DNA from: Hoeflea sp.
GTDB lineage: Bacteria > Pseudomonadota > Alphaproteobacteria > Rhizobiales > Rhizobiaceae
DNA: 64,000 bases
Assembly: GCF_002733955.1 (NCBI RefSeq)
Contig: NZ_NVXQ01000004.1
Coordinates: 1-64,000 of the forward strand
Direction: 5' to 3'
A model generated the notes under the pieces. It made no database searches and was not told where the DNA came from. It saw only the letters and a program-made list of their open reading frames with translations. The first letter of the stretch is position 1; each line of letters begins with the position of its first letter. The position numbers and the translations under genes were made by a program. Of this stretch, positions 4,001 to 19,942 are shown in pieces.

Positions 4001-4154
4001 CTCCCGGATAGCTGGCGTTGATCGAGATGGTCGGCGGCGCGATCTGCGGATATTGCGCGATCGGCAAGGTCATGATGGACAGAACACCTGCCCCCATGAT
4101 GATGATCGAGATCACCCAGGCAAAGATCGGCCTGTCGATAAAAAAGCGTGCCAT
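1026..4154 (-). CDS. RND efflux pump inner-membrane transporter, HAE1 (AcrB/MexF-like) family
   Basis: Proton-driven resistance-nodulation-division pump of about 1042 residues, the normal family length, exporting hydrophobic or amphiphilic compounds as a trimer. The protein opens with MARFFIDRPIFAWVISI, the family N-terminus, so the start is placed at 4154 rather than the upstream ORF-track codon at 4250, which would add an unlikely 32-residue leader overlapping the adaptor gene. The proton-relay aspartate pair is visible in TM4 (LVDDAIVVVENV, near residue 406), and the second half repeats the TM pattern with VVGLTGKNAILIVEFA. It lies 16 bases after the adaptor gene in one operon. No outer-membrane TolC/OprM partner is adjacent, so a distantly encoded channel is inferred. 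The drug spectrum is unknown. Confidence 0.95.
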   Translation of the reverse strand: MARFFIDRPIFAWVISIIIMGAGVLSIMTLPIAQYPQIAPPTISINASYPGASAQTIANTVTQVIEQRLTGLDGLRYFSSSSTSAGTASITLTFETGIDPDIAQVQVQNKLSQATPLLPETVQRQGVTVQKSSASFMMVIGLISEDGALDQTDLSDYLNTNLVDQFSRLEGVGEVQVFGAKYAMRIWLDPVKLAAYGLAPSDVLAAVSAENAQISAGAFGSLPAIEGQQLNATITAQSLLTTPEDFEGIVVRAATDGGLVLLKDVARVEIGSENYSTIARYNGNPATGMAIRLAAGANALDTADLVKAKIEEAATFFPEGVSYVVPYDTTPFVEISIDEVIATLIEAIALVFVVMLVFLQNFRATLIPTLAVPVVLLGTFGILAMFGFSINTLTMLAMVLAIGLLVDDAIVVVENVERIMEEEGLSPLEATRKSMGQITGALIGIALVLSAVYVPMAFFGGSTGVIYQQFSITIVSAMGLSVLVAMTLTPALCATLLTAKSVHHPKKGPAGWFNAAFDRITGGYGSSVGWIVRRPFRVGALYLALVGVMVWSFVQTPTAFLPDEDQGILLAMIQAPTGATAGRTQKVLEQVENHFLVNEKDNVESVFGVVGFSFSGQGQNMGLAFVRLKDWSERTEPGQSAQAIAGRAFPAFMGIKDAMAFPIVPPSVPELGIMSGFDFYLEARNGQSHEELLAARNQMLGMAAQSPLIASARPSGLEDASQYHLDIDWRAAGAMGVNATNVAQLLQIAWAGTYVNDFIDRDRIKRVYIQGEADARALPSDISKWKVRNASGGLVPFSNFAEGSWTFGPQGLNRYNAVNAMQVQGSPAPGVSTGDAMAEIERLAAQLPGYGVSWTGLSLEERESGNQAPLLYALSLAAIFLCLAALYESWSIPFAVMLAMPVGVLGALLWTLFGGYQNGVFFQVGLLTVVGLTGKNAILIVEFARERYEAGEPLLEAVREAAKQRFRPIIMTSMAFSLGVLPLVISTGAGSGGRNAIGTSVLGGTISGTILGILFVPLFFVLVTRRRKQAPDELKTTAETGS

Positions 4155-4170
4155 GTCGGCCTCCGCGAGG

Positions 4171-5304
4171 TCAGTTCTGAGCCGGGTCTTCGGCGCGTTC
4201 TTCGGGGACGACGGTGGCGCCGACGGCGATTTTCTGCAGGCCTTCGACAATCACCCTGTCGCCGGCCTGAACGCCATCCGACACGATCCAGTCGGAATCA
4301 CGGTCGCTGACGATGGTCAGGGTTCGCTGCTCGACCACATTGTCGGCGGTGACGACCATGGCTGTGGGATTGCCGCGGCGGTCACGCGAGACGCCTTCCT
4401 GCGGGACCAGAATGGCGTTGTCGATGACGCCCTGCGGCATCTCCACCTGCACATACATGCCGGGCAACAGCATCTGGTCGGGATTGGGGAACTGCAGCCG
4501 CAGCGTGACCACGCCGGTGAGCTCATCGACATGCGGCTCGGCCGCGGTAAGTTCGCCGGTGTGATCATAGGCGGTGCGGTCGGCCAGGGTCAGCTTGACC
4601 CTGGTGTCGATATTGGCGCCGGCGGCTCTGGGGCCCTTGCGCTTCCAGCGCACCAGATCGGCGGCGGACTGGGTGACGTCGACATAGACGGGATCGAGCT
4701 TGCGGATCACGGCCAGCGGGTTGCTCTGGCCGGAAATGACCAGCGCGCCCTGAGTGGTCAGGGAAAAGCCGATGGCGCCCGAGATCTGGGCCCGGATGGT
4801 TGTGCGATCCAGATCGATGTTGGCGGCAAGCAACTGCGCCTCGGCGACCTGCAGGGCCGCGTCCGCACTGTCACGGGTGGTCTGGGCGGTATCAACCGAC
4901 TGCTCGCTGGCGACGTTGCTCTTGCGCAGCGACTCCATGCGCTTGAGTTCGCGATTGGCGGAATCGAGGCTGACCTGGGCCTGGTTGACGGCCGCTTCGG
5001 CGGCAACCACCTGGGCGCGGTAGGTTGCCGGATCGATGCGGTAGAGGATATCGCCCTCCTCCACTTTCGAGCCTTCCTCGAAAAGCCGCTCGACGATGAT
5101 GCCGTTGACCTGCGGGCGCACCTCAGCGACGCCGGAGGCGACGACGCGCCCGGGCAGCGTGGTGGTGACGGTTACCGTTTGCGCTTCCAGCGTCACCACG
5201 GTGACGGGCGTGGGCGGCGGGCTGCCGGGCTGCTGCGCCGAGGCGGCAGATGCCAGCACGGCGAGAACCAGGGACACGAAAACGGCGCAAGGCGCTAACC
5301 TCAT
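4171..5304 (-). CDS. RND efflux periplasmic adaptor (membrane fusion protein)
   Basis: AcrA/MexE-like adaptor of 377 residues that links the inner-membrane pump to an outer-membrane channel. A signal peptide (about residues 1-24, ending ASAASAQQ) is followed by the barrel-sandwich/lipoyl half-motif (VRPQVNGIIVERLFEEGSKV), an alpha-helical hairpin around residues 90-150, and the second lipoyl half (TIRAQISGAIGFSLTTQGALV). The start is set at the ATG before MRLAPCAVF because GGAGAAATT lies just upstream; the ORF-track start at 5373 would put 23 non-signal residues in front. First gene of the pump operon and divergent from a TetR gene, a standard efflux-control layout. Confidence 0.93.
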   Translation of the reverse strand: MRLAPCAVFVSLVLAVLASAASAQQPGSPPPTPVTVVTLEAQTVTVTTTLPGRVVASGVAEVRPQVNGIIVERLFEEGSKVEEGDILYRIDPATYRAQVVAAEAAVNQAQVSLDSANRELKRMESLRKSNVASEQSVDTAQTTRDSADAALQVAEAQLLAANIDLDRTTIRAQISGAIGFSLTTQGALVISGQSNPLAVIRKLDPVYVDVTQSAADLVRWKRKGPRAAGANIDTRVKLTLADRTAYDHTGELTAAEPHVDELTGVVTLRLQFPNPDQMLLPGMYVQVEMPQGVIDNAILVPQEGVSRDRRGNPTAMVVTADNVVEQRTLTIVSDRDSDWIVSDGVQAGDRVIVEGLQKIAVGATVVPEERAEDPAQN

Positions 5305-5394
5305 CGAATTTCTCCACTTAATCAGGAGTATCCACTTGGCGAGCATCAGCTCGATGGATAATATGGAAACCAAGCGGTTTTATATTTGTTTTTC

Positions 5395-5416
5395 GGCATA
5401 GCGCAAGCGCAATGCC
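5395..5416. promoter_or_regulatory. Palindrome in the efflux/TetR divergent promoter, candidate TetR operator
   Basis: GGCATAGCGC-AA-GCGCAATGCC is an inverted repeat matching at 9 of 10 paired positions. It lies about midway in the roughly 150-bp region between the adaptor start and the TetR start. Position and symmetry fit an operator at which the TetR protein represses both transcription units. Binding is inferred, not shown. Confidence 0.55.
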
Positions 5417-5457
5417 AAGCACAGTAAAGTGACCGTGAATGGAGGAGAGTTGACTTG

Positions 5458-6105
5458 ATGCCAGCGTGCAGTAATTCGCAGCGAAGACCGGGGAGGCCCC
5501 GGCAGCTCGACGTGGCCGAACGCGAAGCCATCATCATCAGCGCGGCGGAACGGATCATCCTGACCAAGGGGCTTGCGGCGGCCTCAATGGCGGCGATCGC
5601 AACCGAAGCGGGGATGTCGAAGCGAACGCTCTATGATGTGTTCGAGAGCCGAACCGCGCTGTTTTCATCCGTCATCCGGCGGGTCCACAAGATGCTGACC
5701 CGGCCATTGCAGGAGAGCGAACTCGGGCTGCCGCTGGCCGAACGGCTGCGCCTGCTGCTGACACCGGCGAACAAGAAATTTTCCGATCCTCTGCCGCTGG
5801 CCATTCTCCGCGCCGTCGTCACCGAGGGCGAGCGGCAGCCGGATCTGGTACGGGAATTCCTTCAGGAAGGCCCGCATGCATTTGTCCGCATGGTTCGCCG
5901 CGAACTCGACCGATCGGTTGAGCGGGGCGAGATCCGCATCAGCGACACGCAGGTCGCGGCCCGTCTGATGACGGACATGGCACATGGCAATGCGCTGGAA
6001 CATCTGCTGGTGCAACAGACAGCACAGGCGCGTGAAACCGACTACGAGCGCCGCATTGCCCTAGCCATCCGGGTGTTCCTGGGCGGGATCGGCGAGGCCG
6101 AATAA
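5458..6105 (+). CDS. TetR/AcrR family transcriptional regulator
   Basis: Predicted repressor of the divergent RND pump operon. The N-terminus has a basic arm (SQRRPGRPRQLDVAERE) and a TetR helix-turn-helix around residues 30-62 (MAAIATEAGMSKRTLYDVFESR). The rest is an all-helical ligand and dimerisation domain. Length, about 215 residues, is normal. The ORF track uses the TTG at 5455; the ATG three bases on is equally well placed behind GGAGGAGAG and is chosen here. The C-terminal half resembles AefR-like TetR proteins often paired with MexEF/AcrAB pumps, but the ligand cannot be predicted. Confidence 0.9.
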   Translation: MPACSNSQRRPGRPRQLDVAEREAIIISAAERIILTKGLAAASMAAIATEAGMSKRTLYDVFESRTALFSSVIRRVHKMLTRPLQESELGLPLAERLRLLLTPANKKFSDPLPLAILRAVVTEGERQPDLVREFLQEGPHAFVRMVRRELDRSVERGEIRISDTQVAARLMTDMAHGNALEHLLVQQTAQARETDYERRIALAIRVFLGGIGEAE

Positions 6106-6437
6106 CGCTTCACGGCCGCGGCCGGATGAAAGCCACGCGCGCACCAATGTCCCGGCTCTGCCCTGTTCATACGTCAGTGGGATTGGCTATGGCGACCCGG
6201 CAATCGGGAAGCCGAGCCCGGCAGCCCTGCCGATGGACAGAATCCGAGCGCTCTCTGGGTGCGTTGCGGGAGGCGCCGCGGCTATGCTCTTCAACTTCCT
6301 CATCAGCTCGGCGTTGCTCCCCGTTGATTTCTGTTGTCTCTAATTTAGGGACTCGTTAACTATAAAATACCATGTTGCAGCCCTGCTGCTTCATTGCAGG
6401 GGACAACTGAACAGCAACGGAAAGCGAAGACCAGATC
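6106..6437. other. Intergenic region upstream of the hybrid kinase
   Basis: About 330 bases. The ORF-track peptide at 6126-6359 has no recognisable features and is treated as spurious. The right end is AT-richer, holds the one-mismatch CtrA-like box listed separately, and is followed by TATAAAATACC, which could be part of the kinase promoter. A CGGCCGCGGCCG palindrome lies just after the tetR stop. Confidence 0.6.
6345..6359 (+). promoter_or_regulatory. CtrA-like box (7 of 8), upstream of the hybrid kinase
   Basis: TTAG-GGACTCG-TTAA, followed by C, matches the alphaproteobacterial CtrA consensus TTAA-N7-TTAAC except for one base in the first half-site. It lies about 80 bases before the kinase ATG. 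One of five such sites in intergenic regions of this window. CtrA binding is inference. Confidence 0.45.
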
Positions 6438-9400
6438 ATGATGAAAAATGACATTGGGCTGGTCTTGGCGAGAATCCTCGTGGTTGCTGCGCTGTACTTC
6501 ATCTCCGGGCGACTTGGCCTGTTTCTGGCCGTGCCGCCGGGCTATGCCACCGTCATCTGGCCACCGTCAGGCATCGCGCTCGGTGCGCTGTTCATTTACG
6601 GCTGGCGGCTGTGGCCCGGGATCCTGATCGGGTCGTTTCTGCTCAACAGCTACATCTCCGGCGCCTACACGGTGGACACGGGTGCTGATGGCGCCAAGAT
6701 GCTTGCGGCCCTGGCCATTGCATCCGGCTCGACGCTGCAAGGTCTGGTCGGCTACGGCCTGGTCAATCGGTTCGTCGGCCTGCCGCTGTCCTTTGACAGG
6801 ATCAGGCAAATCGTACGGCTGCTGGTGATCGCAGGGCCGGTGGCCTGTGTCATTGCCGCCAGCATCGGCGTTAGCACTCTCTACTTTTCGGGTATTCTGC
6901 CTGCAACGGAGCTTAGCTGGAACTGGTTTACCTGGTGGACGGGCGATGTGCTGGGGGTTGTCACCTTCCTGCCGTTGCTGCTGCTTACGCCGACCAACAA
7001 GAACAACCTTACCTGGCGCGGTACCACGATCGCGAGATTGCCGGTGACGGCGTTGCTGATCATGCTGATCCCGCTTGGACTGACCTTTTATGCATGGAAG
7101 ATCTCTTCGGAGGCCAACACCAGCAATGGGGAAATCCAATTCGAATCGCTGGCGGTTGAAAACAAGAAGGCACTCCTGAGCCGGATCAACTCCTACGAGA
7201 ACGCGCTGCTTGGCGGCGTGGCCTATTTCCAGGGGTCGGAAAATATCAGCCGCAATGAATGGCGGCGGTATGTTGACATGCTTGATATTCAGGAAAACTT
7301 TCCCGGCATCAACGGCCTGGGGTGGATCACCTCGCTGGCGCCTTCCGGCATCGACAGGTTTCTCAACGCGGCGCGCGCGGATGGCGCACCGAATTTCGAG
7401 ATACGACCGAAGAATGTCGAAGCAGGCCATTACATCATCAATTTCATTGAGCCGGAGTCCATCAACCGGCAAGCAATCGGGCTGAACATTGCTTTTGAAG
7501 AGAACCGCAAGCAGGCGGCCGATCTGTCGCGCAGCACCGGCAAGCCGGCGATCACCAAGCGCATCATCCTGGTCCAGGACGCCGAGAAGACACCCGGGTT
7601 CCTGCTGCTGCATCCAATGTACAAGGAGGGCTTCGAGCCAGGATCATCGGCCGACGAATGGGCGACGTTCGACGGCTGGATCTACGCCCCCTTCATCGCA
7701 AAAAACTTCATGAATGAACTGACCCAGAGCCAGGGAAACACCATCAATTTCCGAGTTTATGACGGGGATTCGGAAGACCCGGAGGCCTTGATCTACGACA
7801 GCCGGAAGGTTCGGGTGGCCGATTACGTCCCGGCCTTCACCAAGCGCGAGCAGATTGATGTCATGCAGCAACGCTGGCTGATTGTCTGGGAAAGCACACC
7901 AGGGTTCGAGCAAAGCTCACGCAACAACAACCCGGTTCTGGTCCTGGCCGGCGGCCTGCTGATCTCGTTCTTGCTGGGCCTGTTTCTGTTTGTCGCTAAT
8001 ATTCGCCGCAACGACGCCATCGAAGACACGCCCGGCCTCAAGGCGCTGGTGCTGCCGGCGATGGTCTTCCTCGTGCTGGCTGTCGGAACACTGGGGCTCT
8101 ATCGGGCGCTGACGGCGACCGAGCGAGATTATCTCAAGTCGCTGACCAGCAACGAAGCCAACAGGATCAGCGCCATTGTCGCCGCTGAGACAAAGGGGAA
8201 AATTTCCGCGCTTGAGCGAATGGCCTCCCGGCTGGAGTTCAGTCAAAACCGGCTGGAAGCGGCCTGGCGCACAGATGCCACCAACTTCATCGAGGATTTC
8301 GAAGGCCTGCGCGTCATCAGCAAGGTCGGCACCGACAACATCATGCAGCAGACCCAGCAATCCCCAGCCAATGAACGGCTGGTCTGGGTCAATGCAGTTC
8401 TCGACCCGGCGCGGGCAGATGTGGTCGCGGCTGCCATCGCGGCCGATGTCCCGAAACTGAGCTCTCCGCTTGAACTGGCGTTCGGCAGACATGCTTTGAC
8501 TGCATATTTCCCCTTGAACGTCCTCGGCGTCTCGGACGGATTCCTGGCCGGGGTCTTCTCGGTGGAGGAGTTTTTCAACATCGATATTCCACGGGAATTG
8601 CTGGACCGCTACCGCTTTGAGATCGCCTATGAGGGCGAGATCTATGCCAGGGCAGGAAACCAGAGCCTGCCGCTGGCAACCGACTGGCTGCTCGAAAGCA
8701 AGATACAGGTTCTGGACAGGGCCTGGTCGCTCACCTCCATCCCGACCGCAGAGTTCCTGAATTCGCAGCGCAGCCAGTTGCCCAGCGTGGCGCTGCTGGC
8801 AGGTTTTCTGATTTCGGTGCTTGCGGCGATTGCTGCCTACACGACAGGCCTTTCACGTTTGAAAACAGCACGGCTGGAGGCTTCCAATGTCCGCATCAAG
8901 GAGGAAGCAACGCGCAACTCCACCGTCATGAATACCGTTCTTGACGGGGTGGTGACCATCAACTCGCAAGGTCTCATCGAGACCATCAACCCGGCCGGGT
9001 TGCGCCTGTTCGGCTACGCGAAGGAAGAAATCATTGGTCACAACATCAAAATTCTGATGCCTCCTCCCTATCACGACGCCCATGACGGTTTTCTCAAAAA
9101 CTACCTGAACACAGGGGAACAGAAGGTCATCGGCCTTGGACGACAGGTCGTGGGACGACGCAAGGACGGCTCGGTGTTTCCGATGGACCTGGCTGTCAAC
9201 GAAATGAAGCTGGATGGGCGGCGGATGTTTGTCGGCACCATCCGCGACACCAGCGAAGCGGTGGCCGCGGCCCAGGCATTGCATGAATCCGACACGCTCA
9301 AGACCGCGATCCTGGCCAGCACCGAGTATCTCATCGTCGCTACCGGAATGGATGGCACGGTGATGGTCTTCAACGAGGCAGCCGAAAAAGCCCTCGGCTA

Positions 9401-10805
9401 CACCGCCGAAGAAGTTGTCGGAAAACAGACGCCAGCGCTCTGGCATGACCCTTTGGAGATTGTCGAGCGGGCGAAAGTACTCTCGGAAGAACTGGGAGAG
9501 ACGATCGAGCCCGGCTTTGAGGTCTTCAGGCGCAAAGTCGACCTTGTCGGTACCGATGAGAACGAATGGAGCTTCATTCGCCGTGACGGGACACGCTTCC
9601 CGGCGTTGCTGGCGGTCACGCCCCTGCGCGACGAAGACCAGCAGATGACCGGGTATCTTGGCGTCATACTCGACATAACCAAGCGCAAGGAAATGGATCG
9701 GCTGAAATCGGATTTCGTATCCATCGTCAGCCATGAGTTGCGCACGCCGCTCACCTCCATCCGCGGCGCGCTCGGCCTGATGGCTGGTCCGATGGCGAAA
9801 GACCTGCCGGAGAAAGCCGGCCGGCTGATCGACATTGCACACAAGAACTCCGAACGTCTTACCCTGCTGATCAATGACATTCTCGACATCGACAAGATCG
9901 AATCGGGCCAGATGCGGTTTGACATGAAAGAGGAAGATGTCGGGTCACTGGTGACGCAGGCAGTCGACGTCAATCAGCCCTATGCCGAAAAGCTTGGCGT
10001 TGTCTTCAAGGCGACCGACATCAATCCCGACTTGAAAGCCAATGTTGATGCTGCGCGCCTTGCCCAGGTCCTGTCCAACCTGCTGTCCAATGCGGCAAAA
10101 TTCTCCGACCGTGGCAGCGAGGTTGAGATTTCGGCTCTCAAGGCGGGCAAGCGGGTTCGCATAAGCGTCAGGGATCACGGCGCAGGTATTGCCGAGGAGT
10201 TCCGTTCAAAGATCTTCGGCAAATTCTCCCAGGGAGATTCGTCGTCAACGCGGGTCAAGGGCGGCAGCGGCCTGGGACTTCACATCAGCAAGCAGATCGT
10301 CGAACGAATGGGTGGCAAGATCGGCTTTGAAACCGAGACAGGCCTGGGCACGACCTTCTGGATGGAGCTGCCCTTGAGGGTGCAAGATCATGTCACCGGA
10401 AACCTGGAAAAGGATGATGTCCAGCGGGCAATGCTGCACTACCAGAAAAAAGAGACGCCAACGCTGCTGCATATCGAAGATGACCAGGATCTGAGCCGTG
10501 TGCTGGCGATGTCGCTGCAGGGCAAGATTGAGGTGGTGCCGGCCGCAAGCCTGCAGGAGGCCGAGCAACTCTTGCGAAACCAACGCTTTGACCTGGTTGT
10601 GCTGGATGTTGAACTTCCAGATGGATCCGGACTCCAGTTCCTCACAAACCTGATCAGCCAGATCACGCCGCCGGTTCCGGTGATGATCCTCTCGGCGAGC
10701 GAGGTCTCCGGTGATATCGAGAAATCGGTGTCCGCTGCGCTGGTCAAGTCGCGCGCGTCCGAGGAGAGGATTCTCGAGACCATTGAAACACTTGTCGACG
10801 GGTGA
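6438..10805 (+). CDS. MASE1/CHASE/PAS hybrid sensor histidine kinase with C-terminal receiver
   Basis: Large membrane sensor kinase of 1455 residues. In order: MASE1 multi-TM module (about 8-225, with GYATVIWPPSGIALGAL); a CHASE-type extracytoplasmic domain (about 235-490); TM helices near 500-520 and 533-558; a second extracytoplasmic, CHASE-like region (about 560-780); a TM helix near 784-806; a FixL-like PAS (about 829-945); a second PAS (about 955-1085); HisKA with phosphoacceptor SHELRTPL (H near 1098); HATPase_c with GSGLGLHISKQIV; and a receiver (about 1338-1452, phospho-Asp in VVLDVELPDGSG). Because it ends in a receiver, it probably passes phosphate on through an HPt such as the one at 11429. 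The ligand is unknown. Downstream genes suggest output to c-di-GMP control. Confidence 0.92.
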   Translation: MMKNDIGLVLARILVVAALYFISGRLGLFLAVPPGYATVIWPPSGIALGALFIYGWRLWPGILIGSFLLNSYISGAYTVDTGADGAKMLAALAIASGSTLQGLVGYGLVNRFVGLPLSFDRIRQIVRLLVIAGPVACVIAASIGVSTLYFSGILPATELSWNWFTWWTGDVLGVVTFLPLLLLTPTNKNNLTWRGTTIARLPVTALLIMLIPLGLTFYAWKISSEANTSNGEIQFESLAVENKKALLSRINSYENALLGGVAYFQGSENISRNEWRRYVDMLDIQENFPGINGLGWITSLAPSGIDRFLNAARADGAPNFEIRPKNVEAGHYIINFIEPESINRQAIGLNIAFEENRKQAADLSRSTGKPAITKRIILVQDAEKTPGFLLLHPMYKEGFEPGSSADEWATFDGWIYAPFIAKNFMNELTQSQGNTINFRVYDGDSEDPEALIYDSRKVRVADYVPAFTKREQIDVMQQRWLIVWESTPGFEQSSRNNNPVLVLAGGLLISFLLGLFLFVANIRRNDAIEDTPGLKALVLPAMVFLVLAVGTLGLYRALTATERDYLKSLTSNEANRISAIVAAETKGKISALERMASRLEFSQNRLEAAWRTDATNFIEDFEGLRVISKVGTDNIMQQTQQSPANERLVWVNAVLDPARADVVAAAIAADVPKLSSPLELAFGRHALTAYFPLNVLGVSDGFLAGVFSVEEFFNIDIPRELLDRYRFEIAYEGEIYARAGNQSLPLATDWLLESKIQVLDRAWSLTSIPTAEFLNSQRSQLPSVALLAGFLISVLAAIAAYTTGLSRLKTARLEASNVRIKEEATRNSTVMNTVLDGVVTINSQGLIETINPAGLRLFGYAKEEIIGHNIKILMPPPYHDAHDGFLKNYLNTGEQKVIGLGRQVVGRRKDGSVFPMDLAVNEMKLDGRRMFVGTIRDTSEAVAAAQALHESDTLKTAILASTEYLIVATGMDGTVMVFNEAAEKALGYTAEEVVGKQTPALWHDPLEIVERAKVLSEELGETIEPGFEVFRRKVDLVGTDENEWSFIRRDGTRFPALLAVTPLRDEDQQMTGYLGVILDITKRKEMDRLKSDFVSIVSHELRTPLTSIRGALGLMAGPMAKDLPEKAGRLIDIAHKNSERLTLLINDILDIDKIESGQMRFDMKEEDVGSLVTQAVDVNQPYAEKLGVVFKATDINPDLKANVDAARLAQVLSNLLSNAAKFSDRGSEVEISALKAGKRVRISVRDHGAGIAEEFRSKIFGKFSQGDSSSTRVKGGSGLGLHISKQIVERMGGKIGFETETGLGTTFWMELPLRVQDHVTGNLEKDDVQRAMLHYQKKETPTLLHIEDDQDLSRVLAMSLQGKIEVVPAASLQEAEQLLRNQRFDLVVLDVELPDGSGLQFLTNLISQITPPVPVMILSASEVSGDIEKSVSAALVKSRASEERILETIETLVDG

Positions 10806-10926
10806 CGCTCACTTTGGGCCGAGGGAGGCGCGACTTGCAACATGATTGCTGCCGCGCTGCACGGCGAAGCTGGCCTGGCTGGTGGAACACAGACACACGA
10901 ACCCCAAACCGCGAGATGCAAGACAG

Positions 10927-11313
10927 ATGAGCGAGCCCCTGAAAATTCTCTATGTGGACGACGAAGACGACATCCGGGAAATCGCAGTGATGGCGCTCGA
11001 ATTCGACCCGGCGTTGACCGTGAGGAGCTGCGCTTCGGGTTCGGAGGCGCTTGCGACCGTGACAGACTGGCTGCCGGATCTGATCCTGCTGGATGTGATG
11101 ATGCCCGACATGGATGGCCCGGAGACGCTGACACGTCTTCAGCAGGCCCCGGAAACGGCTGCTGTTCCGGTGGTGTTTACTACCGCACGAACCCAGCCCG
11201 AGGATATTGACCGGTTCATGAGCCTCGGCGCGGCAGGGGTGATCTCCAAGCCCTTCGATCCGATGACGCTGGCCGAGCAGGCGCGAGATCTTCTGGCAAA
11301 GAGGAAGAGCTGA
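10927..11313 (+). CDS. Single-domain response regulator (CheY/DivK-like receiver)
   Basis: Stand-alone receiver of 128 residues with no output domain. The acidic pair is in ILYVDDEDDIRE, the phospho-Asp in LILLDVMMPDMDGP, the Thr in VVFTTARTQ and the Lys in GVISKPFDPMTL, so all phosphorylation residues are present. The ORF-track start at 10846 adds 27 residues unlike the family, so MSEPLKILYVDDED is taken as the N-terminus. It lies 120 bases after the hybrid kinase on the same strand and probably acts in the same phosphorelay by competing for or shuttling phosphate, or by protein contact. Confidence 0.9.
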   Translation: MSEPLKILYVDDEDDIREIAVMALEFDPALTVRSCASGSEALATVTDWLPDLILLDVMMPDMDGPETLTRLQQAPETAAVPVVFTTARTQPEDIDRFMSLGAAGVISKPFDPMTLAEQARDLLAKRKS

Positions 11314-11428
11314 GCCTGCCAGGAGAGCTTGCGCTCAGGCAGGTGTAACGGCCGGGATGCATCTCATCGACCGCGCCGCAGGGTTTTGCATCGGTTGACG
11401 TCATGGCGGCGTGAGGCCACGGCTCGTG

Positions 11429-11776
11429 TCATTCCATGGCCTTGATCTGATCCAGCAGGTCCGCCATTGCCGAGGCGAACTCGGCTTCGCTGTAGCCCTC
11501 TTCCCGCACGGTGTTTTCGAACCGGAAGGCTGCTTCGCCCAGAGCCTGAAAACCGAAGATGCCGGCTGTTCCGACCAGGGAATGCGCCAGGGTCATGAGA
11601 TCAGCATCCGCTGCCCCGCGTTCACCGGGCAACTTCCGCAGGGCGAGCAGTTCCTGGATCTGCTCCAGATGTCCGCGGGAGCGCTCGATAAAGAGGAGTC
11701 GCAACGTCTCGATGCGCTCGCGGGCCTCGGCCGGCAGCTCGTCCAGCTTGCTTGCATTCATCATCTGATTGGCCAT
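11429..11776 (-). CDS. Histidine phosphotransfer (HPt) domain protein
   Basis: Small helical protein of 115 residues with the HPt signature AHSLVGTAGIFGFQALGEAA, in which the His is the phosphorylated residue and the Gly-x-x-x-x-Phe-Gly pattern follows as in ArcB/YPD1-type domains. The start is set at MANQMMNASKLDEL; the upstream part of the ORF-track ORF overlaps the neighbouring PilZ gene in another frame. Last gene of a minus-strand group with two receiver-containing c-di-GMP proteins and convergent with the single-domain receiver. The natural role is to move phosphate from the hybrid-kinase receiver to one or more of the receivers nearby (inference). Confidence 0.88.
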   Translation of the reverse strand: MANQMMNASKLDELPAEARERIETLRLLFIERSRGHLEQIQELLALRKLPGERGAADADLMTLAHSLVGTAGIFGFQALGEAAFRFENTVREEGYSEAEFASAMADLLDQIKAME

Positions 11777-11828
11777 CTGACAGTCTTCCTCATCTTGCGT
11801 ACCGATCCGGCATCCGCATCGTTGACAG

Positions 11829-13064
11829 TCACTCGCAGAACTCGACGCCGACCTCATCATTGACATGCCAGCATTTCCGGACCCGCCGGAGCTGACCGGA
11901 AGCGGTGATCTTGAGCAGGAAATATTCCGGCAGCGCCATTTGCCTTTCAAGCCGGAGCCGCGCCCCGCCATCGGAGACGCTGCGGACCGTGCAATTGATC
12001 TTGGAGGACCATTCTTCCAGCGCAATATAGGCGGGCTTCAGTGTCCGCATCCGGGTCGAGCGCCGCCGTTCCCTCGGATCTCCGGGCCCGGCTGCTGCGG
12101 GCAGCGTGCTCCAGTCCTCGCCGCCGAGCTGCGTTTCGAGCGCCTTGCGGCGGTCGCCCAGTTCGGTCGCCAGATACTGTTCCATCTGCTGAAGGCCGGC
12201 AAACTCGCTGGAAATGGCTGCCCCGATCACAGGCGAAATCTGCAGTTCTACCGACTTGAGATGATGAGAGAACGTCAGCTGCTCGTTCAGCCGTGCAAGC
12301 CGCTCGTTGACGACAGGCGTCGAAACGTTGCGATCGATGACGTAGTGGAACGTGTCTTCATCGTACCTGCCGCAGAAATCATCGGACCTGATATTGGCCC
12401 GGATCCTGGCCGCAAAACCACGCAGGATCTCATCGGCATTGGCAACGCCGAAATTGGTGCAGATCTTGCGGTATTCGGCCAGGCATATCGAAAAGACAAC
12501 AAATTTGCTGTTCTGGCGCCTGGCCGCTGCGGCTACCAGCAACAGCTTCTTGTCGAGCTCCTCACGGCTGTACATGCCGGTGAGATCATCGAACAGGGCC
12601 TTCTTGCGCAGCGACGAGACCTCGTCGTCGCGCGAGGCTTCCACCTCATAGCGAGCAATCGACTTCTTCATCGCAAGGGTGATTTCATCCATGCGCAGGT
12701 TGCGCTTGGGCAGGAAATCATAAAGGCCCATGCGAAACGCCTTGATCGCGGTGCGCTGTGATTCATCGCCGGACAACATGATGACCGGTGGCAGCTCCTT
12801 GTAGCGAAGCTTCAGCTGCTCATGTACCCGGAAGCCGTTTTCCGAATCCAGGTTGTAGTCGAGCAAGATGCAGTCCGGCATCTCCTTTTCCAGGACGGCT
12901 GCAAGGCTGTCGCTGTCACCGGCTTCAAGGGTTCTCAGATTTGCCTGCGCGAGCAGCGCCGAGAGGTGCAGACGGTAAAGATTGTCGTCATCGACGATGC
13001 AGACCGAGCGGCCATCCAGATTGATGCCACTGCCGTCAGCGGCCTGTTCATAGGTAACACTCAT
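11829..13064 (-). CDS. REC - degenerate GGDEF - PilZ three-domain protein
   Basis: Protein of 411 residues. An intact receiver at about 17-135 has VCIVDDDN, phospho-Asp in CILLDYNLDSENG, Ser in IMLSGDE and Lys in DFLPKRN. A GGDEF-fold domain at about 160-310 keeps the opening FDDLTGMYSREEL, but the active loop reads GRYDEDTF instead of GG[DE]EF and the metal-binding segment is lost, so cyclase activity is not expected. A C-terminal PilZ domain at about 330-411 has the arginine motif RRRSTR and the loop SVSDGGARL, where the usual first D/N is S. It thus looks like a phosphorylation-controlled c-di-GMP reader. The start at MSVTYEQAADG fits the receiver; the ORF-track extension covers the neighbouring intergenic gap. 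Confidence 0.85.
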   Translation of the reverse strand: MSVTYEQAADGSGINLDGRSVCIVDDDNLYRLHLSALLAQANLRTLEAGDSDSLAAVLEKEMPDCILLDYNLDSENGFRVHEQLKLRYKELPPVIMLSGDESQRTAIKAFRMGLYDFLPKRNLRMDEITLAMKKSIARYEVEASRDDEVSSLRKKALFDDLTGMYSREELDKKLLLVAAAARRQNSKFVVFSICLAEYRKICTNFGVANADEILRGFAARIRANIRSDDFCGRYDEDTFHYVIDRNVSTPVVNERLARLNEQLTFSHHLKSVELQISPVIGAAISSEFAGLQQMEQYLATELGDRRKALETQLGGEDWSTLPAAAGPGDPRERRRSTRMRTLKPAYIALEEWSSKINCTVRSVSDGGARLRLERQMALPEYFLLKITASGQLRRVRKCWHVNDEVGVEFCE

Positions 13065-13149
13065 TTGCTTGATCCAATCCACAGCAGGAAAGCCTCGGGA
13101 GCCGGGGAACTGACTTCGACACGATGATCGGCGTGGGGCGAGAGATCCC

Positions 13150-14508
13150 TCATGGCTGGTCCTCGCCCCCGGCATCGGGGCTGGCCGGAAGGTCTTCTGC
13201 CGGGTGAGCCAGCACGACCTGGTTGCGGCCATTGTTCTTGGCCAGGTACAGCGCCCGGTCGGCTTCGGCAAAGAGCTCGGCGGTGTTCTCACAGGCGTTG
13301 CTGCCGGCCACGCCGATGCTGACCGTCAGCGAAAACTGTTCCGGCCGGCCGTCGAACACGATCTCGGCAAAATGCTTGCGGAACTTTTCCAGCACGTCGA
13401 AGACAGCCTCGGGGGCGGTGTCGAGCAGCAGCACTGCGAACTCCTCGCCTCCATAACGCCCCACCACATCGGTCTTGCGGACCCAGCCGACAAGTGTCCG
13501 GGCGAGGATGGACAACACCTGGTCGCCAACCGGGTGACCCCAGGTATCATTGACCTTCTTGAAATGGTCGACGTCGATCATGGCCACGCAGAACTGCATC
13601 CCGGTGCGTTTGACCCGGGCCATCTCGTGACCGACACGCTCGTTGAAGCGGCGGTGATTGAGAAGGCCGGTCAGGCCGTCGCGCTCGATCAGCGAGCGCA
13701 GCACCCGCGCGCGCTCGACCCGCAAATTGATCAGCATCACCAGCGCATCGAGATCTGCCCGCTTGGAGATGAAATCGTCGCCGCCGAACTGCCGCGCCCG
13801 CATCTGGATGGTCTTGTCTTCCTCGGAGGACAGGAACACGATCGGAATCGACAGGTGGCTCTGGTGCTGGCGAATGATCTTGGCGATCTCGATGCCGTCG
13901 GTATTGGGCATCTGCAGATCCATGATGATGATGTCGAAGAAGGACCCGTTGATGGTCGGGATGATCTTCAGCGGGTCATTGAGAATGGACACGATCATGC
14001 CATTGGCGCGCAGCATTTCGGCGTAGACGGCCGAGGCAATCGGGTCGTCATCGACCAGCAGGATCGATGCCGGCTGCTCGCTCAGCTGACCGCCCAGATG
14101 CTCGAGCCAGTGGACCAGCTCCGCCTGTTCGATCGGGTTGGCGATGATGGTGCTGACATGCGACCGGGCACATTTGGCGCGGTAGGCAAAGCTTGTTTCG
14201 GGCGAGACGAGAATTTTCGGCAGGGCTTCGCCAAGATCTTCGCAAATGGCAAGGGCATCGGGTATCGACCCGTCAATCAGCACCAGGGCATCGTCGTCGC
14301 CATTGGCCACGGCTGCGGCCTGTCCCGGCCGGCCCTCGACGGTTGTTGCGGAATAGTTCAGGGGGGTCATGACCTGGGCGACATCATCGAGGAATTTTCC
14401 TCCACCGATGACGTGCACGGACGGTCTGGAGGGGCTGCTGAAGACCGTTTCCACCTGCGCCGATTTGCTCGCCCGGGAAATCTCGACTGGATCTGAAATC
14501 TGGAACAT
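13150..14508 (-). CDS. PleD-like diguanylate cyclase (degenerate REC - REC - GGDEF)
   Basis: Synthesises c-di-GMP from two GTP. 452 residues. An N-terminal receiver-like domain (about 28-140) lacks the acidic pair (VHVIGGG) and the conserved Lys, so it looks degenerate. A canonical receiver (about 147-265) has ILLVDDDP, phospho-Asp in IIMDLQMPNTDG and Lys in DFISKRAD. A GGDEF domain (about 280-435) has FKKVNDTWGHPVGD and the intact active site GRYGGEEF. The sequence RKTD five residues before GGEEF matches the RxxD inhibitory I-site, so product feedback is expected. The order resembles PleD of Caulobacter. The start is supported by GGAAAG upstream. First gene of the group that includes the PilZ and HPt genes. 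Confidence 0.92.
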   Translation of the reverse strand: MFQISDPVEISRASKSAQVETVFSSPSRPSVHVIGGGKFLDDVAQVMTPLNYSATTVEGRPGQAAAVANGDDDALVLIDGSIPDALAICEDLGEALPKILVSPETSFAYRAKCARSHVSTIIANPIEQAELVHWLEHLGGQLSEQPASILLVDDDPIASAVYAEMLRANGMIVSILNDPLKIIPTINGSFFDIIIMDLQMPNTDGIEIAKIIRQHQSHLSIPIVFLSSEEDKTIQMRARQFGGDDFISKRADLDALVMLINLRVERARVLRSLIERDGLTGLLNHRRFNERVGHEMARVKRTGMQFCVAMIDVDHFKKVNDTWGHPVGDQVLSILARTLVGWVRKTDVVGRYGGEEFAVLLLDTAPEAVFDVLEKFRKHFAEIVFDGRPEQFSLTVSIGVAGSNACENTAELFAEADRALYLAKNNGRNQVVLAHPAEDLPASPDAGGEDQP

Positions 14509-14705
14509 GCTGGTCTTTCCTGATAGTCGCGATTTTCCCGATTTTTTCGCGCTCGCCGGTCCTTCGGCCCTTGAGGTTGTCTAAGTCCTGAAGCTGCGCT
14601 CCAGCCTTCTTGCTGTTTCCCTGCAGCACACTTGTCTGCAAATTCGCCTGGCTGTTGATTACAACCTGTTGAACATTCTAGCTTTTTATAATTCGCTGAT
14701 ATATG

Positions 14706-14720
14706 TTAATTGTGCCTTAA
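14706..14720. promoter_or_regulatory. Perfect CtrA-like box TTAA-N7-TTAA
   Basis: TTAA-TTGTGCC-TTAA matches both half-sites and the 7-base spacer of the CtrA consensus exactly. It lies about 200 bases upstream of the diguanylate cyclase start (minus strand) and about 440 upstream of the phosphodiesterase (plus strand). Function is inferred from motif match and intergenic position. Confidence 0.55.
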
Positions 14721-15106
14721 ACGGGAACTACTGATTATCAGGTGAGACTTTTGAACCTAATCAGTAAAGGTTGAACGCCCGACGGCGAGACCTTGCGCGC
14801 TCTCAGGATTTTTCAAAGAAACCACTTCGCACTTCACACTTTTCGGGGCGGTGAATATTTGAAACCAAAAATATTCAACGTCAAAGCTTATCCGGGACGG
14901 GACCGCGGTCTGGATTTTTCCGGGGCGGAGACCGGGCGATCGGGCTGCCGCAGTCCGCGCGCCGGCAACAGGCATCGGGCTCGCCCGCATGAGTGCCGCT
15001 TGCAGCGCTTTTGAGAGTGGCTTTGAACACGTTATGCGAGTGAATTTGCAAATCCACATCATTTCGAGATCAATTCGTTAAGACGAACGCTGTAGCCAGT
15101 AACGGG

Positions 15107-15128
15107 GAGGTCAGCATCTGCTGATCTC
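15107..15128 (+). promoter_or_regulatory. Leader hairpin or palindrome before the EAL gene
   Basis: GAGGTCAGCA-TC-TGCTGATCTC pairs over 10 bp, with one G-U wobble as RNA and one mismatch as DNA. It ends 32 bases before the EAL start, which has no clear Shine-Dalgarno sequence. It may be an operator for a dimeric regulator or a translation-controlling hairpin; the sequence alone does not decide. Confidence 0.4.
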
Positions 15129-15160
15129 TGTCATTCAACCTGTGTGAACCGCGCTTCATC

Positions 15161-16543
15161 ATGCCCACTACCTTGCAAGCTACTCCTGGCAACAAGCCGT
15201 CGCAGCGATTGCGCTTCGCCTACAAGGGCGCCTCCCTGAGCCTGCTGATCTTCAGTCTCGGCTGGTTCGTCTACTTCGCCTCAATCCAGAACTGGCCTCT
15301 TGCCTGTGCCGACCTGTGCATAATCGTGCTTGGTGGCATCGGCTGGCTGCTGGTCAGACGCAACCAGTTCGACGTCGCGCTGATGGTGTCGGAAGTTGCC
15401 TTCCTGGCCTTTACCGTCGCTTTCTGCCTGGTGTTCGATGTCCCCAGCGAAGCCCATCCGCGGGTGTCACACCTGTTTCTTCCCGCCATCGCCTTGATGG
15501 CCTATTTCAATTACCTGCGCACAAGATCGCCCTTCCAGCTCCTGGTGATCGCCGGCTCGCTGTTGAGTTTCATCTTCTTTTCCAGCACGAAATTCGCGCC
15601 GTCCTTCGCCCTCAGCATTCCCGATGACATCCGGCATGTTGGAATCTGGATCAATTCCACCCTGGCCACGGCGATGCTGTGTGGAGGGGTTTACGCGATC
15701 CATCGCGAATCCTCCGGGCAAAGCCAGCTCTCACGCGCGCTGCGGACAGCCGTGCGGAACGACGAGCTGGAGTTGCACTTCCAGCCGCAGGTCGATCATG
15801 CGCAGAAGATTGTCGGCGCGGAAGCGCTGTTGCGCTGGACTCACCCGCGGCGGGGAAACATTTCTCCTGGCGAGTTCATTCCGGTCGCGGAAGAGTGCGG
15901 GCTGATGCCGCTGATCGGTGGCTGGGTGCTCAAGGAAGCCTGCCGGACGCTGGCCACCTGGAAGCACGATCCCGCCCTCAGCGAGCTCACACTCGCCGTC
16001 AATGTGAGCGCCAACCAGTTCAATCTCGAGGGGTTCGAGCAATCCGTGCTGGAAACCGTCGCGCTCTACGGCGTGGACCCGGGGAAGCTGAAACTGGAAC
16101 TGACCGAGACCGTCATCATTTCGGGCGTGGAGCCGGTTGTGGCCAAGATGAACACCTTGCGCGCCGCCGGCATCGAATTCGCCCTGGACGATTTCGGCAC
16201 CGGCTACTCATCCCTGAGCTATCTGCGGCAATTGCCCGTGAGCCAGCTCAAGATCGACCGCAGCTTCGTCAAGGAATCTCTGGAGAGCCCCAGCGGCGCC
16301 TCACTGATCAGAAGCATTGTCAGAATGGGGCTGGAGCTCGAGCTTTCGGTGCTGGCCGAGGGGATCGAGACCGTTCCACAGCACCTGTTCCTGCTTGATT
16401 GCGGGTGCCATGAATTCCAGGGCTATCACTTCGGCCGCCCGGTTCCGGAACACGTGTTCAGAACCGAGGTCGCGACCCGGATGCGGACGACGCAAAACTC
16501 GTCACGTCCTGCGCCAGAGCCCAGGTCCGTGGCGACTGGCTAG
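15161..16543 (+). CDS. Membrane-anchored EAL-domain c-di-GMP phosphodiesterase
   Basis: Protein of 460 residues. About six hydrophobic helices between residues 20 and 185 form a membrane sensor of unrecognised type. An EAL domain fills about 195-440. Catalytic and metal motifs look complete: AEALLRW, NVSANQF, LELTETV, ALDDFGTGYSS, LKIDRSFV, AEGIET and FQGYHFGRP. It should hydrolyse c-di-GMP to pGpG. No GGDEF domain is fused. Divergent from the PleD-like cyclase, so opposing enzymes share one long control region. The start is the ATG at 15161; no good ribosome site is visible, which may reflect leader control. Confidence 0.92.
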   Translation: MPTTLQATPGNKPSQRLRFAYKGASLSLLIFSLGWFVYFASIQNWPLACADLCIIVLGGIGWLLVRRNQFDVALMVSEVAFLAFTVAFCLVFDVPSEAHPRVSHLFLPAIALMAYFNYLRTRSPFQLLVIAGSLLSFIFFSSTKFAPSFALSIPDDIRHVGIWINSTLATAMLCGGVYAIHRESSGQSQLSRALRTAVRNDELELHFQPQVDHAQKIVGAEALLRWTHPRRGNISPGEFIPVAEECGLMPLIGGWVLKEACRTLATWKHDPALSELTLAVNVSANQFNLEGFEQSVLETVALYGVDPGKLKLELTETVIISGVEPVVAKMNTLRAAGIEFALDDFGTGYSSLSYLRQLPVSQLKIDRSFVKESLESPSGASLIRSIVRMGLELELSVLAEGIETVPQHLFLLDCGCHEFQGYHFGRPVPEHVFRTEVATRMRTTQNSSRPAPEPRSVATG

Positions 16544-16986: not shown

Positions 16987-18432
16987 TCAGTTGACGTCGC
17001 TGTCCCAGCCGGAGATGGCCTTGGCCTCAAGGAATTCCTCGATGCCCCAGACGCCGCCTTCACGCGCCCGGCCCGAGGCCTTGACGCCGCCGAAGGGCGA
17101 GCCAGCGCCGCGCGACTTGCCGTTCATCTCGACCATGCCGGAGCGAAGACGCCGGGCCATGCGGTTGCGCTTGGCGCCATCCTGGCTCTGGACGTAGTTG
17201 GTCAGACCATAGATCGTGTCATTGGCGATCTCGACCGCATTTTCTTCATTGTCGAAGGGAATGATCGACAGAACCGGGCCGAAGATTTCCTCACGCGCGA
17301 TGGTCATGTCGTTGGTGACATCGGCGAAGATGGTCGGGCGGACGAAATAGCCGCGGTTGAAGCCTTCCGGACGGCCGGTGCCGCCGGCGACCAGACGGGC
17401 GCCTTCATCGATGCCCTTCTGGATCAGACCTTGGATCTTGTCGAACTGGGCAGCCGAGACGACCGGACCAATGTGGTTGCCCTCGTCATGCGAAGAGCCG
17501 ACCTTGGTCGAGGCGGCAACTTCGATGGCCTTTTCCACGGCCTGGTCATAGACCGGGCGCTCGACCAGCATGCGGGTCGGCGCATTGCAGCTCTGGCCGG
17601 TGTTGTTGAAGCAGTGGCGGACGCCGCGCTCGACGGCCTTTTCGTCGGCATCGGCAAAGATCACATTGGCGCCCTTGCCGCCGAGTTCGAGGCAGACCCG
17701 CTTGAAGGTGTCGGCGGCGGCCTTGGAAATGGCAGCGCCGGCGCGGGCCGAGCCGGTGAAGCTGATCATCTCGACATCCTTGTGGGTCGAAAGATCGGTA
17801 CCAACGCCGACACCATCGCCATTGACCAGGTTGAACACACCGGCGGGAACTCCAGCGGCATCGATGATCTCGGCAAAGACGATCGAGGACAGGGGGGCTA
17901 TTTCAGACGGCTTGAGCACCATGGTGCAGCCAGCGAGCAGCGCCGGGATCACCTTCAGCGTGACCTGGTTCATCGGCCAGTTCCACGGCGTGATCAGGCC
18001 GACAACGCCGATCGGTTCCATGGCGATGCGGTCATTGGGGGCGTGGGGGCCGAGCGGCCGGATGAACTCGATATCCTTGAAGGCGGTGATGAAATTGTCG
18101 ATGTGCCAGGTGCCGGAGGTGACCTGGCTGGAGCGCGACATCGAAATCGGCGCACCCATTTCAAGGCTGATCGCCTGCGCCATGTCCTCGGCGCGTTCGG
18201 CGTAGATCTCGCGGATCTTCTTGACGTAGCCGAGCCGGACCTCGGGATCGGTCTGCGCCCAAGATTGCTGAGCCGCCTTGGCGGCAGCGACCGCCTTGTC
18301 GGTGTCCTCGGAGGAGCCGAGCGAGATCACCGCACAGGGTTCCTCGTTCGACGGGTCGATCACGGCGCAATCGCGTGGCTTGGAGGGCGAAACCCAGGCA
18401 CCATTGATGTAAAACTCGCGCTTCTCGATCAT
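16987..18432 (-). CDS. Aldehyde dehydrogenase family protein
   Basis: NAD(P)-dependent oxidation of an aldehyde to its acid; substrate not determinable. 481 residues, normal length. Active-site parts are all visible: GLITPWNWPM with catalytic Asn (about 150), CLELGGKGANVIF with the general-base Glu (about 246), and GQSCNAPTRM with the nucleophile Cys (about 280). The start is decided by the ribosome site: GGAG lies one base from the first of two nearby ATGs but seven from the second, so MIEKREFYINGAWV is taken as the N-terminus. The ORF-track start at 18480 adds 16 unlike residues. A flavin reductase remnant lies downstream. Confidence 0.93.
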   Translation of the reverse strand: MIEKREFYINGAWVSPSKPRDCAVIDPSNEEPCAVISLGSSEDTDKAVAAAKAAQQSWAQTDPEVRLGYVKKIREIYAERAEDMAQAISLEMGAPISMSRSSQVTSGTWHIDNFITAFKDIEFIRPLGPHAPNDRIAMEPIGVVGLITPWNWPMNQVTLKVIPALLAGCTMVLKPSEIAPLSSIVFAEIIDAAGVPAGVFNLVNGDGVGVGTDLSTHKDVEMISFTGSARAGAAISKAAADTFKRVCLELGGKGANVIFADADEKAVERGVRHCFNNTGQSCNAPTRMLVERPVYDQAVEKAIEVAASTKVGSSHDEGNHIGPVVSAAQFDKIQGLIQKGIDEGARLVAGGTGRPEGFNRGYFVRPTIFADVTNDMTIAREEIFGPVLSIIPFDNEENAVEIANDTIYGLTNYVQSQDGAKRNRMARRLRSGMVEMNGKSRGAGSPFGGVKASGRAREGGVWGIEEFLEAKAISGWDSDVN

Positions 18433-18605
18433 TTTCATTCTCCAAACATGTTCAGACGTCCCAGATGGGAACGATGTCATCTCAATTCAAATCTGTAGGG
18501 GTGAGCGGCAGGGGAAAGCAACCTCGATTCCGTCACTGATCGCTTCGAAACGGGCTCTCGCGTCGATTTTACACGGACGCAGATCTTACCAGGCCGGGCT
18601 TTTGC

Positions 18606-19856
18606 TCAGCGGACTGCCTTAAGCAAGGCGAGGGACGGGAAGCAGGTCGGCTTCTGGCCGTTCTTCGCCTGCCATTCGCCGATCGACCGCCTGGTCTTGT
18701 AACCGGGCAGGCCATCGGCACCGCCGACATCGTAGCCCTGTCTTTCGAGCATTGATTGCAGCCGGGCAATGTCGGAGCGCAGCATCTTGCCGGTGTTGCC
18801 CCAGGGCGTGACAAAGGCCGAGCCGCCATGGGCCATGCGGTCGGCCAGATTGCCGATGAACAGGGCATAGAGGTCGGAATTGTTGTATTCCTTGATCACG
18901 TAGAAATTCGGCGTGACGACAAATTCCGGGCCGAAAGTGCCGGCTGGCACCAGTACCATGCCCGGGGCGCGGCGCTCATGCTCGGGAAACGGTCTGCCGG
19001 AAATGCGGATGATGCCCATATCGGTCAATGCACTGATCGGGCGGGTCCGGTCGGGGCCTTCGAGCGCACAGGTGACGCCTTCGGGGATCACAGCCTCAAA
19101 GCCCCAGTCGCGGCCGCGAACCCAGCCCGACCTGGCCAGATAATTGGCGATCGAGGCCAGCGAATCAGCGGTCGAGTTCCAGATGTCGCGCTTGCCGTCG
19201 CCATCAAAATCGACCGCGTGGTCGAGATAGCTCGAGGGCAGGAACTGCGGTTGTCCCATGGCGCCGGCCCAGGAACTCTTCATCGCGGAGGCCGGAATGT
19301 CGCCGCGCTCAAGGATCTTGAGTGCCGCGAGGATTTCCTTGCGGAACAGCTCGGTCCGGGTCGACATGAAGGCCTTGGTGGCGATGACGCGGATGGCCGA
19401 ATGCGGGATTTTAGCCCGGCCGAAGCCGGACTCCCTGCCCCAGATGGCAACGACGATCGAACCCGGGACGCCGTAGCGATCCTCGATCTTGCGCAACAGG
19501 CCGGCGTGCTTTTGCATCAGCGAGCGACCCGAAGCGGTCAGGCCCTGCAGCCGCTTCTCGTTGAAATAGGCGCCGGGGCTGCGGAATTCGGCCTGGCTCT
19601 GGGCCCGCTGCTTGGGCTTGGGGAAGCCGGGAGGGGCCAGATCGGGCAGGTCCCAGTCGAGACTGACGCCGGAAAAGGTGCGGTCGAAGACCGATTTGGA
19701 GACTCCTGCCCGCATGGCTTCGGGCCAGAGATCGGCCTCGAGCCATTGGCGGAATTGCGCCTCGACGCCTGCCTTGGTGGCAGCCTGCGATGCGGGTACC
19801 GCAAGGGCGGTCATGGTGAAAGCGAAGCAGAGGGTCAGGATCAGGGCGCGAATCAT
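18606..19856 (-). CDS. Lytic murein transglycosylase (MltB-like) with peptidoglycan-binding domain
   Basis: Periplasmic enzyme that cleaves glycan strands of peptidoglycan with 1,6-anhydro product formation. 416 residues. A signal peptide (ALAVPASQAATK, cleavage near residue 26; no lipobox Cys) precedes the SLT_2 domain (about 30-330) with catalytic Glu in AIWGRESGFGRAK (near residue 142) and the motif WAGAMGQPQFLPSSYL. A C-terminal PG_binding_1 domain (about 350-405) contains LQSMLERQGYDVGGADGLPG. Stand-alone gene between the aldehyde dehydrogenase and recR. Confidence 0.93.
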   Translation of the reverse strand: MIRALILTLCFAFTMTALAVPASQAATKAGVEAQFRQWLEADLWPEAMRAGVSKSVFDRTFSGVSLDWDLPDLAPPGFPKPKQRAQSQAEFRSPGAYFNEKRLQGLTASGRSLMQKHAGLLRKIEDRYGVPGSIVVAIWGRESGFGRAKIPHSAIRVIATKAFMSTRTELFRKEILAALKILERGDIPASAMKSSWAGAMGQPQFLPSSYLDHAVDFDGDGKRDIWNSTADSLASIANYLARSGWVRGRDWGFEAVIPEGVTCALEGPDRTRPISALTDMGIIRISGRPFPEHERRAPGMVLVPAGTFGPEFVVTPNFYVIKEYNNSDLYALFIGNLADRMAHGGSAFVTPWGNTGKMLRSDIARLQSMLERQGYDVGGADGLPGYKTRRSIGEWQAKNGQKPTCFPSLALLKAVR

Positions 19857-19942
19857 GCCTTCAGCGTAACCCGAGCTTGGTGCCGGGAAAATGGCGGTTG
19901 TGACGCCATGTGCCCGGTTTGGCGCGTTCTGTCCGAACAGGC

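Follow-up and report, generated by a model that had tools for sequence, protein, structure and literature searches.

Signalling pathways joining phosphotransfer and c-di-GMP

It is a long-standing question by what means c-di-GMP signals are kept apart in cells that contain dozens of cyclases and phosphodiesterases. In Caulobacter and rhizobia, the kinases PleC and DivJ directly phosphorylate both the lone receiver DivK and the REC-REC-GGDEF cyclase PleD, whose first receiver takes the phosphate, in a system with neither an HPt nor a PilZ protein. In Borrelia burgdorferi, a hybrid kinase with two periplasmic sensor domains and with REC and Hpt fused to it, a REC-GGDEF cyclase, phosphodiesterases and a stand-alone PilZ reader without receiver make up a single pathway, Hk1-Rrp1-PdeA/PdeB-PlzA (PMC4013479). 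In the HptB pathway of Pseudomonas (HsbR, HsbA, HsbD), hybrid kinases encoded at other chromosomal loci feed a stand-alone HPt which is linked to a diguanylate cyclase; HsbR acts as a phosphatase/kinase switch, and the cyclase HsbD, having no receiver, is reached through HsbA (PMC5085249). The ShkA-ShpA-TacA relay of Caulobacter consists of a hybrid kinase, a separate HPt and a separate response regulator, and is tied to c-di-GMP as an input of the kinase, its output being a transcription factor and no cyclase taking part in the relay (PMC7010744). Finally, the VieSAB operon of Vibrio cholerae encodes a sensor kinase, a response regulator that is itself a c-di-GMP enzyme, namely an EAL phosphodiesterase, and an auxiliary receiver protein modulating phosphotransfer, VieB, which also has a TPR part; it includes no PilZ protein (PMC4352251).

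The locus described here lies in a window of 64,000 nucleotides, by which the whole stretch of DNA analysed is meant. Five recurring genes, encoding a hybrid kinase, a lone receiver, a stand-alone HPt, a diguanylate cyclase and a REC-degenerate GGDEF-PilZ protein (RGP), suggest a self-contained and so far undescribed signalling cassette, as opposed to a chance cluster. It shares with DivK-PleD the lone receiver and a cyclase with two receiver-like halves, although only the second of these can take phosphate, as against the first in PleD. The kinase, cyclase, phosphodiesterase and PilZ reader of the Borrelia pathway all have counterparts at the locus, but that pathway, besides its fused HPt and its receiver-less reader, contains neither a lone receiver nor a REC-dGGDEF-PilZ protein (PMC4013479). 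The step from hybrid kinase to stand-alone HPt is common to the HptB pathway, which is set apart by its distant kinases, by the HsbR switch and by the lack of a receiver in its cyclase. The ShkA relay is similar in its kinase and separate HPt and unlike the cassette in the position of c-di-GMP and in its output, whereas VieSAB, which has a comparable auxiliary receiver, differs in its enzyme. The logic of the cassette is closest to that of Hk1-Rrp1-PlzA and of HptB-HsbD. None of the compared systems has its gene set; the initial annotation of this DNA had known of no system with the exact set of genes either, and no description of the five-gene set was found in open-access papers.

Organization of the locus

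The six genes that had been annotated at this place are all present at 6438-16543 of the window, as verified by ORF and Pfam analysis (Table 1). The domain labels originally assigned also held for the kinase, the lone receiver, the HPt, the cyclase and the EAL protein, whereas the PilZ protein had been under-described, its middle GGDEF domain having been missed.

Table 1. Genes of the locus, with their positions in the window and the evidence for each assignment
Gene product	Position	Strand	Evidence
Hybrid sensor kinase, 1455 aa	6438..10805	+	Pfam over cut-off: MASE1, CHASE, PAS, HisKA, HATPase_c, REC
Lone receiver, 127 aa (D55, K107)	10930..11313	+	Pfam REC; 39% match to the first receiver of PleD from this genome, weaker match to the receiver upstream of it
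Stand-alone HPt, 115 aa (H65)	11429..11776	-	Pfam Hpt 42.5 bits
RGP (REC-degenerate GGDEF-PilZ), 411 aa	11829..13064	-	Pfam REC+GGDEF+PilZ; alignment; AlphaFold2
Diguanylate cyclase, 452 aa	13150..14508	-	Pfam REC+GGDEF; alignment
Membrane-anchored EAL phosphodiesterase, 460 aa, accessory	15161..16543	+	Pfam EAL

Two converging transcription units, kinase-receiver and cyclase-RGP-HPt, can be distinguished, and the EAL gene is transcribed divergently from the cyclase. The lone receiver follows the kinase after 124 bp, the gaps within the opposite unit are 85 bp (cyclase-RGP) and 52 bp (RGP-HPt), and 652 bp separate the EAL and cyclase genes. A promoter scan performed no better than on shuffled sequences. 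The flanking genes tested for a shared target or function differ between loci and are mostly metabolic; since they show no shared function, the block is regarded as self-contained.

The two output proteins

In the RGP of the window, the receiver carries D69 and K120 and the middle GGDEF domain occupies residues 156-286 (E 1.8e-18 for the protein). The catalytic signature of this GGDEF domain is lost (DEDTF), and in all 13 aligned copies it is degenerate, in differing ways; the domain is therefore taken to be retained in a non-catalytic form. The receiver Asp and Lys and the RRxxxR motif of PilZ are kept in 13/13 copies, and the (D/N)x(S/T)xxG motif in 12 of them, the exception being the window protein, where a serine (S362, in SVSDGG) stands at the D/N position and, judging by the motif, may weaken c-di-GMP binding. 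RGP probably reads c-di-GMP. In the AlphaFold2 model (pLDDT 78, pTM 0.50), a REC domain is followed by a helix, a GGDEF fold and, at the position of PilZ, a C-terminal domain rich in beta structure; REC and GGDEF match WspR (3bre, 3i5a), DgcR and PleD best in the PDB. The label of a plain REC-PilZ response regulator was rejected, given the GGDEF-fold domain that Pfam, the alignment and AlphaFold2 all place between REC and PilZ. No paper on a REC-GGDEF-PilZ or GGDEF-PilZ architecture was found in the open-access literature, to which extent this three-domain response regulator adds to the known architectures. No relatives of RGP were present in the plasmid collection at E 1e-30.

The cyclase of the window comprises a degenerate receiver-like half (about 29-129), likewise overlooked in the initial annotation, followed by the true receiver (D197, K249) and a GGDEF domain with the I-site RKTD (344-347) and the signature GGEEF (353-357). 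In 12/12 aligned copies the receiver Asp and Lys, DxD, the I-site RxxD and GGEEF are kept, so that each has the receiver residues, the GGEEF A-site and the metal Asp by which a response-regulator diguanylate cyclase is recognized. It was also considered whether this protein could be the PleD of the cell; this was rejected, the score being 186.7 bits against an NCBIfam PleD cut-off of 474 and the first half being degenerate, and a canonical PleD over the cut-off (679 bits) is encoded elsewhere in the genome, on contig C4.

Distribution and genomic location of the five-gene set

RGP was used as the survey marker because of its unusual domain set. It was found in 5/151 genomes of the window's family and, at a stricter threshold than in the family search, in 7/398 genomes of the order, while a class sample of 385 genomes yielded none besides the window genome. 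Of 18 genomes of the genus, 5 possess the block, and its surroundings differ among them. In a contig search with RGP, the best six among the matches listed aligned through the PilZ part, and the carriers named among the matches listed were Aurantimonas manganoxydans, Notoacmeibacter species, Pinisolibacter aquiterrae (Ancalomicrobiaceae), Cucumibacter marinus (Devosiaceae) and a MAG labelled Phyllobacteriaceae.

Conserved synteny of all six genes within the order had been proposed as a check, and it was found for five of them and not for the EAL gene: at 13 of 15 other loci examined, spread over at least three families of Hyphomicrobiales, the kinase gene is accompanied by those for the lone receiver, HPt, RGP and cyclase. 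At a fourteenth, L107, the contig ends inside the cyclase, before the HPt, and in the stretch of L109 that was retrieved, cyclase, RGP and HPt are present but kinase and lone receiver are missing. This grouping of five genes is more than chance. The gene orders observed were cyclase-RGP-HPt converging with kinase-receiver in the window's genus, cyclase-RGP-kinase-receiver plus a divergent EAL-HPt pair in f27 (the group of Pinisolibacter, Ancalomicrobiaceae), and RGP-HPt-cyclase with the kinase mostly downstream. In four loci of the last order, RGP and HPt share 4 bp, and in Aurantimonas the HPt and cyclase genes overlap as well; the orientation of RGP is reversed in Notoacmeibacter. In addition, HPt, RGP, cyclase and kinase core show correlated pairwise divergences (Pearson 0.85-0.92), those of the lone receiver tracking the others less well (Pearson 0.66-0.78, Spearman 0.16-0.30), all these values including the contribution of species relatedness.

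The cassette changes its genomic location. Its flanks in the window (3004-6106 and 16995-20500) lie far apart in two relatives: in G046 about 0.6 Mb separates them, and in G139 they belong to different contigs. The cassette is therefore placed at a rearrangement point of the window chromosome; the G046 cassette is at a third place. The DNA similarity between loci L014 and L115 runs from 8 bp ahead of the cyclase gene to about 0.15 kb past the kinase start. One flank is common to L014 and L116, and some copies have therefore been passed on in place. In the cassette tree, which is at odds with family taxonomy, the copies of the genus join f27 (support 100/99), and a single clade for the window's family is rejected (p-AU 5.8e-5). 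Horizontal transfer would be the simpler reading of this conflict, which could also stem from ancient duplication with loss.

As a separate matter, the MAG labelled Phyllobacteriaceae (L107, JAAYVT010000337.1) groups with Pinisolibacter by its genus code (g135) and in the cassette tree, and its label may be wrong.

Proposed phosphate flow and alternative readings

The proposal of a phosphorelay wired to c-di-GMP, made when the locus was first annotated, is borne out by the five-gene synteny and by the invariance of the phospho-acceptors of the HPt, of the two output receivers and of the lone receiver. We consider it fairly probable, on the basis of these genomic comparisons, that the five genes constitute a self-contained relay cassette, moving horizontally or repeatedly lost, in which the kinase acts through the HPt on both the cyclase and RGP. 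The kinase would sense a periplasmic or membrane signal (through MASE1, CHASE and a second loop) together with a cytoplasmic one (through PAS), autophosphorylate on H1099 and pass the phosphate to a receiver, which would be its own D1390 or, in some relatives, probably the lone receiver. From there the phosphate would reach H65 of a dedicated HPt, to be distributed to the receivers of cyclase and RGP. Phosphorylation is expected to activate the cyclase, the output of which the I-site would limit, while RGP would work as a two-input gate on its target, being addressed by phosphorylation through the receiver and by c-di-GMP through PilZ, and possibly through the dead GGDEF domain as well. The lone receiver may serve as an intermediate or as a sink or feedback element, and EAL phosphodiesterases recruited beside the cassette in some lineages would reset the signal. 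A maker and a reader on one dedicated relay, relocating as a unit, would offer a tractable natural test case for local c-di-GMP signalling.

A more far-reaching version, which we put forward tentatively and as somewhat doubtful, is that of a mobile plug-in circuit in which one relay feeds cyclase and RGP and the reader requires both local c-di-GMP and its own phosphorylation at the same time in order to respond. Such a circuit would be insulated from the many other cyclases of the cell, and phosphodiesterases would have been recruited to it independently in separate lineages.

The main rival to a dedicated relay, though an unlikely one, is a branched two-component system with no obligatory relay, where HisKA would phosphorylate cyclase, RGP and lone receiver directly and the HPt would drain phosphate or serve another hybrid kinase. 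The kinase keeps its H-box in 12/12 loci, and in the window its terminal REC has D1390 and K1437, but among the 12 loci compared three, all from Notoacmeibacter, lack this receiver and G218 has a degenerate one, while the rest of the cassette is kept, as a branched system would allow. The canonical route through the kinase's own receiver is therefore not universal, and the lone receiver, which keeps its D and K in 12/12 aligned copies, may for the same reason carry part of the phosphate route. Moreover, a pseudoREC-REC-GGDEF cyclase accompanied by a lone receiver resembles DivK-PleD. Against a branched system, the phospho-accepting His of the HPt is kept in 12/12 aligned copies, the HPt gene is translationally coupled in several loci, and in those genomes of the genus that were checked, the HPt is present or absent along with the cassette. 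In addition, the three Notoacmeibacter loci (L016, L017, L027) each have an additional kinase and an additional lone receiver, and the position of this extra receiver next to the receiver-less kinase suggests that the fused receiver can be replaced by a separate one.

It is less likely still that the HPt is a shared hub, also serving other hybrid kinases as HptB does in Pseudomonas, with the cassette as an output module for many inputs. The window genome has two Hpt matches over the cut-off, that of the cassette and one in a 763-aa frame taken to be CheA from its length and the surrounding receivers, and G046, which carries the cassette, has the same two; the cassette HPt is thus the sole stand-alone one over the cut-off in both genomes, a point in favour of a hub. 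However, the long CheA-type match is the only one in the cassette-less relative G139, from which it follows that other kinases of the genus do not need the cassette HPt, and the kinase travels with the cassette. The absence from G139 of any HPt other than CheA makes it probable that the HPt is dedicated to the cassette. Lastly, a loose neighbourhood of signalling genes without common function, to which the abundance of such genes in the window genome (68 stretches match the PleD model) and the unfixed place of the EAL gene would lend themselves, is highly improbable and already contradicted for the five genes, which recur in few orders in at least three families and in different contexts with block edges matching the module, and it can hold only for the EAL gene.

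Phosphodiesterases beside the cassette

The EAL protein of the window (Pfam 221.5 bits) has the catalytic residues (E221, N281, E313, D343, K364 and E400) and four hydrophobic segments. Its gene was rejected as a core member of the cassette, given that a full-length ortholog lies at 2.67 Mb in G046, about 0.8 Mb away from the cassette at 3.48 Mb, and that no EAL gene was found beside the cassette in L014, L116 and L117. Nevertheless, EAL proteins of unrelated architecture adjoin the cassette in four lineages, the others being GAF-GGDEF-EAL in L115, CHASE4-GGDEF-EAL in Aurantimonas and, in f27, REC-EAL, whose gene adjoins that of the HPt. Under a rough binomial null, an EAL neighbour in four out of 8-10 lineages has a probability of about 1e-5, a figure which is indicative only, the lineage grouping and the 6 kb span having been chosen after the data were seen. 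The initial view that every step, breakdown included, is present at the locus applies to some of the genomes only, and the EAL gene is not a stable member of the cassette.

Further features of the sensory part

The kinase of the window is ordered MASE1 (15-215), CHASE (269-453), a second putative periplasmic loop (residues about 555-780), two PAS domains, HisKA, HATPase_c and a C-terminal REC. The loop (window 8100-8780) sits between two hydrophobic segments and gave no meaningful Pfam match even at E 1; it is possibly an undescribed sensor domain. Kinases of near-equal length are found in L014, L115 and L116, and that of Aurantimonas is shorter (1302 aa), passing directly from CHASE to PAS.

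Elsewhere in the window genome (G000), a weak stand-alone Hpt-like match of 22 bits, below the cut-off, lies on contig C11 (150950-151147) and could be a second HPt. Finally, the kinases of L104, L105, L106 and L107 have about 120 extra residues between the ATPase domain and the terminal receiver. By analogy with Caulobacter ShkA, a c-di-GMP-binding pseudo-receiver is a possible identity for this segment, and it would create a feedback loop.
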